Below are positions 6,591 through 9,212 of a stretch of DNA of 32,133 nt, piece after piece. Numbering within the stretch: the first letter of the stretch is position 1; each line of letters opens with the position of its first letter. Source of the DNA: Alphaproteobacteria bacterium (lineage in GTDB: Bacteria > Pseudomonadota > Alphaproteobacteria > GCA-2731375); assembly GCA_030746635.1 (NCBI GenBank), contig JASLMH010000038.1:1-32133 (forward strand). Reading direction: 5' to 3'. Under the pieces are notes generated by a model. That model ran no database searches. It saw only the letters and a program-made list of their open reading frames with translations, and was not told the DNA's origin. The translations under genes were made by a program, and so were the position numbers.

Positions 6591-6720
6591 CTAGTCGACA
6601 TCCCGTTTGATTGGATTCACCGGGCCACCCGCTCCCCCGTCCCAACCACCCCGAGGGTACCATCTGTGGGTGGTTGGGACGGGGGAGCGGGTGGCTTGGA
6701 TCAGACGAGAAATGCGCTAG
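6591..6720. repeat. Dispersed inverted-repeat element, copy 1
   Basis: 28-bp perfect arms GCCACCCGCTCCCCCGTCCCAACCACCC (6624-6651) and reverse complement (6668-6695), 16-nt loop; CTAG at both outer ends; second copy at 17964-18096. Confidence 0.9.
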
Positions 6721-7880
6721 TCGACGATGTAGGGTTCGAACGGCAGTTTGGAGAGCACTTCGTTGCCGTCGGCGGTGATCACCAGCGGCCGTTCCATGCG
6801 CAGGCCGCCGACGCCGGGCAGGTTGGCGGTGACGGCGATTTCCTGCATGTAATTGGGCTCGAGCACGTAATCGGGTTCCGAGACGCCGGCGATCGCCACG
6901 TCGGTCAGGGTGGGATACCACTCGTCGCCGAAATGGCCGATGCCGTGGCCGAAGCCGCGGATGAAGCCGCTCCAGCCCTGCTGCTCGACGAATTCCCGGG
7001 TGGCGCGGGCGACTTCGCCCAGGGTGCGGCCGGGCCGCATGTTCTCCACCACCTTGTGACAGGTGGCGGTGAAGCCTTCGATCACCCTGGCCTGCTCCTC
7101 CGACGGCCGGCCCAGCACCGCGTTGTGGGCGACGTCGCCCAGCATCAGGCCGTACATGCCGTGCAGGTCCAGCAGCACGAACTCGCCCCGCTGCAGCAAT
7201 TTGTCGGTGGCCGGGGTGCAGGCACCGGTCCAGGTGCGCGGCCCCGAGGCGATCTCCTGACCGCCGGTGAAGGTCCAGGCGAATTCGCTGCCGGCGTCGC
7301 GCATCGCCTTCTCGGCCACGCCGGCGATCTGTTTCTCGCTGATCCCGGGCCGCAGAATTTGGGCCACCGCTTCGTGGCCATGATCGACGATGGCCGCCGC
7401 CTGGCGCATCAGGCGTATCTCGGCGTCCTCCTTGACCAGGGTCAGCCGATCGATGATCGGGTGGCCGTCGACCAGTTCGGCCTCGGGCAGGGCGGCCGCC
7501 AAGTCATTGTATTCGACCCGGGTGATGAAACCCTCGGGCAGGTAGACCGAGGCGCCGTCCTCGATGCCCAGGCGGCCCCCGGCCAGTTCGAGCTCGGCGA
7601 TTTGCGCCGCCGCCGTCGCCATCATGGAGTCCCGGGAATAGCCGACGACCCGGCGCAGCCAACCCTCCTGGCGCAGGCGAATGGCATCCATCGAGGGACA
7701 GATCAGGGTGACCTCGCCCTGGGCCGGGATAACCACGGCGCTGCGCCAGGGGCAAAAGGCGCCGCAGGCATGGGTGACGGTCTTCAGCCGGGTGCCGATC
7801 AGCGCATCCAGGCCGGCCTCGGCCACCGCCGCCTGCATCCGGGCCAGCCGGCCCGTGGGATCCATATGCACGGTGTACAT
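6717..7880 (-). CDS. M24 family metallopeptidase / Xaa-Pro aminopeptidase-like
   Basis: LLDLHGMYGLMLGDVAHNAVLG, RGFGHGIGHFGDEWYP, NYMQEIAVTANLPGVGGLRMERPLVIT; start MYTVHMDPTG chosen with upstream AGGAGG-like site. Confidence 0.9.
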   Translation of the reverse strand: MYTVHMDPTGRLARMQAAVAEAGLDALIGTRLKTVTHACGAFCPWRSAVVIPAQGEVTLICPSMDAIRLRQEGWLRRVVGYSRDSMMATAAAQIAELELAGGRLGIEDGASVYLPEGFITRVEYNDLAAALPEAELVDGHPIIDRLTLVKEDAEIRLMRQAAAIVDHGHEAVAQILRPGISEKQIAGVAEKAMRDAGSEFAWTFTGGQEIASGPRTWTGACTPATDKLLQRGEFVLLDLHGMYGLMLGDVAHNAVLGRPSEEQARVIEGFTATCHKVVENMRPGRTLGEVARATREFVEQQGWSGFIRGFGHGIGHFGDEWYPTLTDVAIAGVSEPDYVLEPNYMQEIAVTANLPGVGGLRMERPLVITADGNEVLSKLPFEPYIVD

Positions 7881-8034: not shown

Positions 8035-8068
8035 GAAAGCGGCAGCACCGCTTTCACGATGCTGCCGC
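8035..8068 (-). terminator. Terminator/attenuator-like hairpins
   Basis: Minus strand GCGGCAGCA-N12-TGCTGCCGC (9-bp perfect stem) followed by TTTCGCTTTTCC; overlaps a mutually exclusive GAAAGCGG-TGCTG-CCGCTTTC stem. Confidence 0.65.
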
Positions 8069-8266
8069 CCCGCCGACCCGGTGTCGTAAAGTCACCGCCG
8101 CACGCCCCGATCGCTCGGTGTGTGGGCGGCGCCCGAACAGGGTGAGGGTGGCCGGTCCGGGTTGATCACCAGGCCGAAACCTCGATTGTTTCGTCCGGCG
8201 CCTTGTGGCGGTCGCCGCCCTGCCCGACTGGCCGCGGCGGCAAACCTCCGTTCTCAACAGGAGCCA

Positions 8267-8282
8267 AGCAAGAATCGTGCCA
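8267..8282 (-). promoter_or_regulatory. Sigma-54 (RpoN) -24/-12 promoter, no obvious coding target
   Basis: Minus strand TGGCACGATTCTTGCT; 18/19 identical to the 2294 site over TGGCACGAATCTTGCTTGG. Confidence 0.8.
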
Positions 8283-8501
8283 GTTTTTCTATGTCTTTTG
8301 AATCAAAGGCTTAGCCATGCGTGATGCAGGTTTGGTTAACTGACTGTAAATCTTTCCGACACCCTGACGGGGCCGCCGTGGTGGTTTGAAATCGCGCCCA
8401 TCGGATTCAGGAATTGTTAACCCATCAGTTTCAGTGATTCTTAAGATTTACCTGTCAGCATGGATGGTGCGTTAAAGGCGAATAGGCGAAAGTTTGGAGC
8501 T

Positions 8502-8651
8502 ATGACCTACCTGACAGCAGATTCTTCCGAGAGCATCGGCAAGTTGCATGACGAGGAGCGGCTGCCCTATTACCTGGCGATGCCGGTATGGCTGCTGCTG
8601 GCGGCGGCGAGTTGGATCCCGATCGTGCTGTTGGTTGGCGCCTTCGCCTGA
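8502..8651 (+). CDS. Small single-TM membrane protein (49 aa)
   Basis: MTYLTADSSESIGKLHDEERLPYYLAMPVWLLLAAASWIPIVLLVGAFA; followed by terminator-like hairpins. Confidence 0.5.
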   Translation: MTYLTADSSESIGKLHDEERLPYYLAMPVWLLLAAASWIPIVLLVGAFA

Positions 8652-8798: not shown

Positions 8799-9212
8799 TC
8801 AGGCGATCTTCTTGCGGCCGGATTTGGTTTGCGCCGGCTGGTAGGCCATGGCGGCGTGGTAGTCGCAATAGGGCTGCCCGACCGTCGATTTGGAACCGCA
8901 GAAATGGAAGTCCTCATCGCCGGGATCGCCGATCGGCCAGCGGCAGGTCGAAGCGGTGAGGGAAAAGATCGAGGTGCCCTCATCCATCGGAGGCTGCAAT
9001 TGCAGCACCTTCTCTTCCCGCTCTTTCTTGCGCTGACGCCGGGTCACCGACGATTTCGACGGCTTCGACAGGCCCAGCCGATTGGCCTTGCCGATCACCG
9101 CGTTGCGCGTCACTTCCTCGCCCAGGCGTTCGGCGATCTGCCGCGCCGAGAAGCCCTCTTGCCACAGGCGGGCCAGCAGCGCCACCCGTTCTTCGGTCCA
9201 ATCCACGGCCAT
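8799..9212 (-). CDS. gcrA: GcrA cell-cycle regulator
   Basis: MAVDWTEERVALLARLWQEGFSARQIAERLGEEVTRNAVIGKANRLGLS...CRWPIGDPGDEDFHFCGSKSTVGQPYCDYHAAMAYQP; hallmark N- and C-terminal motifs. Confidence 0.97.
   Translation of the reverse strand: MAVDWTEERVALLARLWQEGFSARQIAERLGEEVTRNAVIGKANRLGLSKPSKSSVTRRQRKKEREEKVLQLQPPMDEGTSIFSLTASTCRWPIGDPGDEDFHFCGSKSTVGQPYCDYHAAMAYQPAQTKSGRKKIA

Follow-up and report, generated by a model that had tools for sequence, protein, structure and literature searches.

A probable sigma-54-dependent small RNA gene of the PEP-CTERM regulon near gcrA in an alphaproteobacterium

The locus lies within a window of 32,133 nucleotides, the whole stretch of DNA that was analysed, from an alphaproteobacterial genome (G000; 5.08 Mb, 83% complete). 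The gene for the GcrA cell-cycle regulator (gcrA, 8799-9212, minus strand) is a syntenic neighbour of the locus in the genus, and the genes on the gcrA side, an alpha/beta hydrolase gene, gcrA and a 49-aa membrane ORF, are syntenic within the family. The 49-aa ORF (MTYLTADSSESIGKLHDEERLPYYLAMPVWLLLAAASWIPIVLLVGAFA, 8502-8651, plus strand), which encodes a single membrane span and is divergent from the small RNA described below, matched no Pfam family and has counterparts that are 38-50% identical at the corresponding position in seven relatives. On the other side, an M24 peptidase gene (6717-7880, minus strand) is the next gene on the minus strand. Orthologues of this peptidase that are 77-85% identical are found in unrelated neighbourhoods, and to judge by its neighbours the gene appears to move between genomes.

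A sigma-54 -24/-12 promoter, TGGCACGATTCTTGCT, was found by exact pattern match at 8282-8267 on the minus strand, exactly as the original prediction had described a perfect site there. The second perfect -24/-12 site of the window, at 2294 on the plus strand, stands ahead of a PEP-CTERM gene. A count of the pattern TGGCACG-N4-TTGCW in the whole of G000 gave 33 copies vs a single copy for the reversed control, which argues for a genuine regulon promoter, and since an intact PEP-CTERM gene is located downstream of 24 of the 33 exact sites, the pattern marks the PEP-CTERM regulon of G000. At five other regulon sites (C57:7445, C56:7220, C237:27579, C253:11865 and C273:13840) no intact PEP-CTERM gene was found downstream; these are possible non-PEP or further non-coding members.

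Haft et al. (2006; PMC1569441) described proteobacterial PEP-CTERM genes with a two-motif promoter, in which a motif 1 of 17 nt ending in TTTACA is followed by a spacer of 32-92 nt (mean 62.8) and then by a sigma-54 site, the maximum distance from promoter to start codon being 221 nt. The window copy resembles this PEP-CTERM/PrsR class in having a predicted activator-binding box equivalent to motif 1 (TGTCGGAAAGATTTACAG, minus strand 8361-8344), of the form TGTCGG-N5-TTTACA (TGTCGGAAAGATTTACA, minus 8361-8345), which is separated by a 62-nt spacer from the -24/-12 site as motif 2 and lies 79 nt upstream of the -24 element. It differs in that the class was described for protein-coding genes (PMC1569441), whereas the window copy would drive a non-coding gene. 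Allowing up to 4 mismatches, the box is present upstream of 26 G000 sites, and at 22 sites its distance to the -24 element is 79-82 nt, where shuffles lead one to expect 0.27. The box and the -24/-12 site as a combined pattern occur 19 times in G000, 13 times in the relative G008 and not at all in the 13 other genomes of the family, with controls of 0. Between box and promoter, on the plus strand at 8301-8313, is an IHF-like site (AATCAAAGGCTTA) that fits the IHF consensus perfectly; the perfect consensus WATCAANNNNTTR recurs at a constant offset in 20 of 30 regulon promoters, the window copy among them. On this sequence evidence, the activator box and the IHF consensus, both additional to the site first predicted, complete the regulon promoter. 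The best PrsR candidate in G000 scored 368 bits to TIGR02915, below the curated cut-off of 502.6, and no PrsR above that cut-off was found in the 83%-complete assembly. This protein, L123 (G000 C134:5712-7091), is an NtrC-type regulator encoded on a contig shared with a PEP-CTERM gene, and is a candidate activator of the PEP-CTERM regulon.

The positions of promoter and terminator predict a small RNA transcript of about 228 nt (minus strand, 8256-8029), which would begin about 12 nt past the -12 element and stop where the T-rich tail ends. The terminator stem that had been proposed here is real: GCGGCAGCATCG and CGGTGCTGCCGC (hairpin at minus 8068-8039) form 12 pairs that enclose a 6-nt loop, TTTCGCTTTT then runs to 8029, and all 12 pairs are kept in the four homologous sequences described below, 3 of them with changes on both sides. 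A strict terminator scan did not list this hairpin. The predicted fold of the region is much more stable than those of shuffled sequences (z -3.8). That 8255-8035 holds no convincing ORF, as was also predicted, agrees with the comparison, in which no ORF there is conserved in the homologue; a small peptide product was rejected, as no reading frame is conserved with G008. A known RNA family was likewise rejected, since Rfam covariance models matched neither the window copy nor any of the three homologues.

Three relatives (G008, G007 and G010) carry homologues of the RNA in the equivalent position downstream of gcrA. In G008 the same activator box, 80 nt upstream, and the sigma-54 site are found there, and the roughly 210 nt that follow close with a terminator like that of the window copy. 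A covariance model, R1, was built from the window copy and G008; it matched G007 at C27:186491-186656 (E 5e-16) and G010 at C7:16635-16799 (E 8e-15), and scored G008, as one of its own two sequences, at E 4.6e-37. The covariance model search revealed no convincing homologue in other members of the family, and in 387 alphaproteobacterial genomes it gave weak, short matches only, all without the loop described below, which are read as terminator-like chance matches. A DNA similarity search of 61 relatives gave nothing useful. In G012 (L148:1709-1750), a terminator resembling that of the small RNA is all that remains at the syntenic place, and looks like a decayed copy.

The original prediction had made its case depend on conservation of promoter and hairpin in close relatives, and in this comparison one relative has promoter and RNA together, while two others have the RNA without the promoter. 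The regulon promoter is found ahead of the RNA in G000 and G008 only, and is absent in G007 and G010; the numbers of PEP-CTERM proteins (PF07589) in these four genomes are 71, 15, 0 and 0, respectively. As the promoter is present only in genomes with the PEP-CTERM system, promoter and system go together. Either regulon control is ancestral and was lost with the system in G007 and G010, or else the RNA was recruited to the regulon. No replacement promoter, including a sigma-70 promoter, was recognised upstream of the RNA in G007 and G010, and these copies could therefore be relics.

The four sequences share a conserved core (minus strand, 8184-8025; covariance model R1, pair counts and RNAalifold) that consists of a closing helix (P1), a hairpin (P2), a variable hairpin (P3) and the terminator. 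The 5' strand of P1 (8174-8164) pairs in the alignment with its 3' strand (8085-8075), and for 3 of its 5 core pairs one or more homologues have both bases altered. P2 (8161-8132) has a 10-position stem and a 10-nt loop, of which ACCCUCAC (8149-8142) is identical in 4 of 4 sequences and is the presumed seed, complementary to the ribosome-binding site of gcrA. The covariation check called for by the original prediction, run here by alignment, detected compensatory changes: 95.8% of cells in the four-sequence alignment are paired and 12 pairs are changed on both sides, a result reached by 0 of 500 shuffles, vs 0-4 such pairs when the partner was slid by 1-3 columns, although the alignment was fitted to the covariance model, which favours the count of 12. 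A plain MAFFT alignment of the window copy and G008, made without structure, still gave 7 double-changed pairs vs 0-1, the structure being that of the two folds. RNAalifold recovered P1, P2 and the terminator from the four-sequence alignment. Only these four homologous sequences were found, and folding of two of them supplied the helices of the model.

In the alternative put forward alongside the small RNA, the region was a regulated leader of about 375 nt for the M24 peptidase gene (start 7880), with the hairpin as an attenuator. The M24 gene is indeed next on the minus strand, but its start codon is 387 nt from the promoter, more than the 221 nt published as the longest such distance for promoters of this class (PMC1569441), and in the four closest M24 orthologues (77-85% identical) both the region and a close upstream -24/-12 site are absent. 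The RNA homologues, moreover, precede unrelated genes, one of them convergent. The M24 peptidase gene follows in the window, and at this position G008 has a convergent transporter gene, G007 a BON-like gene and G010 a kinase-like ORF, the latter three being named from their sequence only. Because the downstream genes differ and the M24 orthologues are without the element, the RNA gene is taken to be free-standing rather than a leader; the M24 leader, which we regard as very improbable, was dropped. The covarying homologues, the synteny and the complete regulon promoter support the other alternative, in which a sigma-54-dependent small RNA is co-regulated with PEP-CTERM genes.

The P2 hairpin resembles the PEP-CTERM codons PEPATLTLFG, and two further explanations arise from this likeness. 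Translated, minus 8161-8132 gives PGPATLTLFG, and a matrix built from G000 PEP-CTERM 3' ends scores it at 30.7 bits, which is the median of real members and far above the best scores of 13.8 in 107 kb of control DNA and 14.5 in 2000 simulations; random hairpins with the same loop never reached the P2 score in 300,000 trials. These values, together with the fitting promoter type, made it an early leading idea that the locus is the remnant of a PEP-CTERM gene, with promoter and terminator intact and the coding sequence mostly deleted, so that the codons would be a fossil and the transcript meaningless. However, only the ten codons PGPATLTLFG match, with none beyond TLFG, and the full sorting signal (PEP motif, membrane helix and basic end) was not found, the 66-nt signal scoring -7.7 against at least 26 in members. 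The homologous P2 hairpins score -5.1 to 3.3 on the same matrix, and the same RNA, with compensatory changes, occupies the same site in G007 and G010, both without PEP-CTERM genes. The pseudogene idea was overturned by these covarying homologues; the remnant reading is largely refuted and is now considered improbable. A decoy is given a similarly low probability: P2 would imitate a hairpin into which the sorting-signal codons of PEP-CTERM mRNAs could fold, and the RNA would titrate whatever binds those mRNAs. Of 30 positions, the window copy of P2 shares 25 with the PEP-CTERM codon consensus and each other homologue shares 18, and the RNA and the PEP-CTERM mRNAs share a promoter class and would be produced together; but the likeness is confined to G000 and was noticed post hoc, the binding partner is wholly hypothetical, and gene conversion from one of at least 71 PEP-CTERM genes, or chance, would also suffice. 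The P2 likeness may thus reflect gene conversion, mimicry or post-hoc chance.

The locus has several of the features by which a trans-acting small RNA is recognised, namely its own promoter and terminator, no conserved ORF, independence of the downstream gene, and compensatory changes (in four sequences). We consider it probable that it is a free-standing, sigma-54-dependent small RNA gene of the PEP-CTERM regulon, whose product acts in trans and represses mRNAs by loop pairing. Its promoter class, conserved structure and independence from downstream genes are supported by the comparisons made here, and we infer transcription, action through the loop, and repression. In the proposed mechanism, RpoN (sigma-54) and IHF, with an NtrC-type activator on the box at 8361-8344, would switch the RNA on alongside the PEP-CTERM surface-protein genes. 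Transcription of minus 8256-8029 would yield an RNA of roughly 228 nt ending at its own terminator, and this would fold into a closing helix bearing the ACCCUCAC-loop hairpin, then the variable hairpin, then the terminator. Translation would be blocked by pairing of the C-rich loop with G-rich ribosome-binding sites, the mRNA of neighbouring gcrA being the likeliest target found.

The complement of the loop, GUGAGGGU, is itself similar to a ribosome-binding site. In the window the predicted pairing falls in the gcrA ribosome-binding region (TGTGGGGGGTATGCA, minus strand 9227-9213), and the sequence directly ahead of the gcrA start is GUGGGGGGU, compared with GUGGGGGU in G008 and G010 and the exact complement in G007. 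Using 175 control ribosome sites, taken from ORF starts called by a simple rule, the loop-gcrA pairing was found to beat 175 of 175 in three genomes (G008, G007 and G010), and 166 of 175 in the window genome, which places it only in about the best 5% there. The G-rich gcrA site is also present in relatives without the RNA, and therefore no co-evolution is shown. As the best candidate found, gcrA is a tentative target on this predicted pairing. Regulon mRNAs were rejected as targets, since their leaders match permuted loops as well and have no excess complementarity to the loop (5.68 vs 6.01 for permuted loops). Elsewhere in G008 (C404:1954-2134, L194), a regulon promoter is followed by an ORF with GTGAGGGT, an exact loop complement, before its start; the contig ends ahead of an identifiable gene.

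Several known RNAs share parts of this arrangement. NrsZ of Pseudomonas (PMC8395346) is an intergenic RNA of about 226 nt with an RpoN promoter and a response-regulator activator (NtrC), and acts on a ribosome-binding site, as predicted for the window RNA; it differs in belonging to the nitrogen regulon and in activating rhlA, and no shared Rfam family was found. CrcZ, also of Pseudomonas, similarly has a sigma-54 promoter with a response regulator (CbrB) and IHF, but is 407 nt long with A-rich Hfq-binding motifs, and the window RNA is not built around such motifs. In Caulobacter crescentus, a C-rich loop of CcnA base-pairs with GGGG in the 5' UTR of gcrA, which hides the ribosome site (PMC8959179). 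CcnA is thus an alphaproteobacterial RNA likened to ours through its C-rich loop and gcrA, compared by features without a claim of homology, although it is CtrA-controlled and also acts on ctrA. EcpR1 of Sinorhizobium meliloti (PMC4414408) is a trans-acting RNA with a strictly conserved loop and its own terminator that represses gcrA, but its loop is UCCGCCGCAUCU, its RpoD-type promoter is under stringent control, and it is encoded beside divK-pleD. EcpR1 and CcnA establish that loop-acting gcrA RNAs exist in Alphaproteobacteria (PMC4414408, PMC8959179).

The PEP-CTERM/exosortase regulon, which is concerned with surface proteins, exopolysaccharide and floc formation, has been described only through its protein-coding genes, and no paper linking it to a small RNA was found in the literature searched. 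If the present interpretation is true, this would be the first non-coding member of the PEP-CTERM regulon, and a small RNA under the regulon promoter would add a post-transcriptional arm to it. Should gcrA be the target, the formation of surfaces and aggregates would be linked to cell-cycle control, and Alphaproteobacteria would have a third gcrA-directed RNA of separate evolutionary origin. More speculatively still than the target itself, repression of gcrA by this RNA might slow the cell cycle when the surface-protein and exopolysaccharide programme is turned on.
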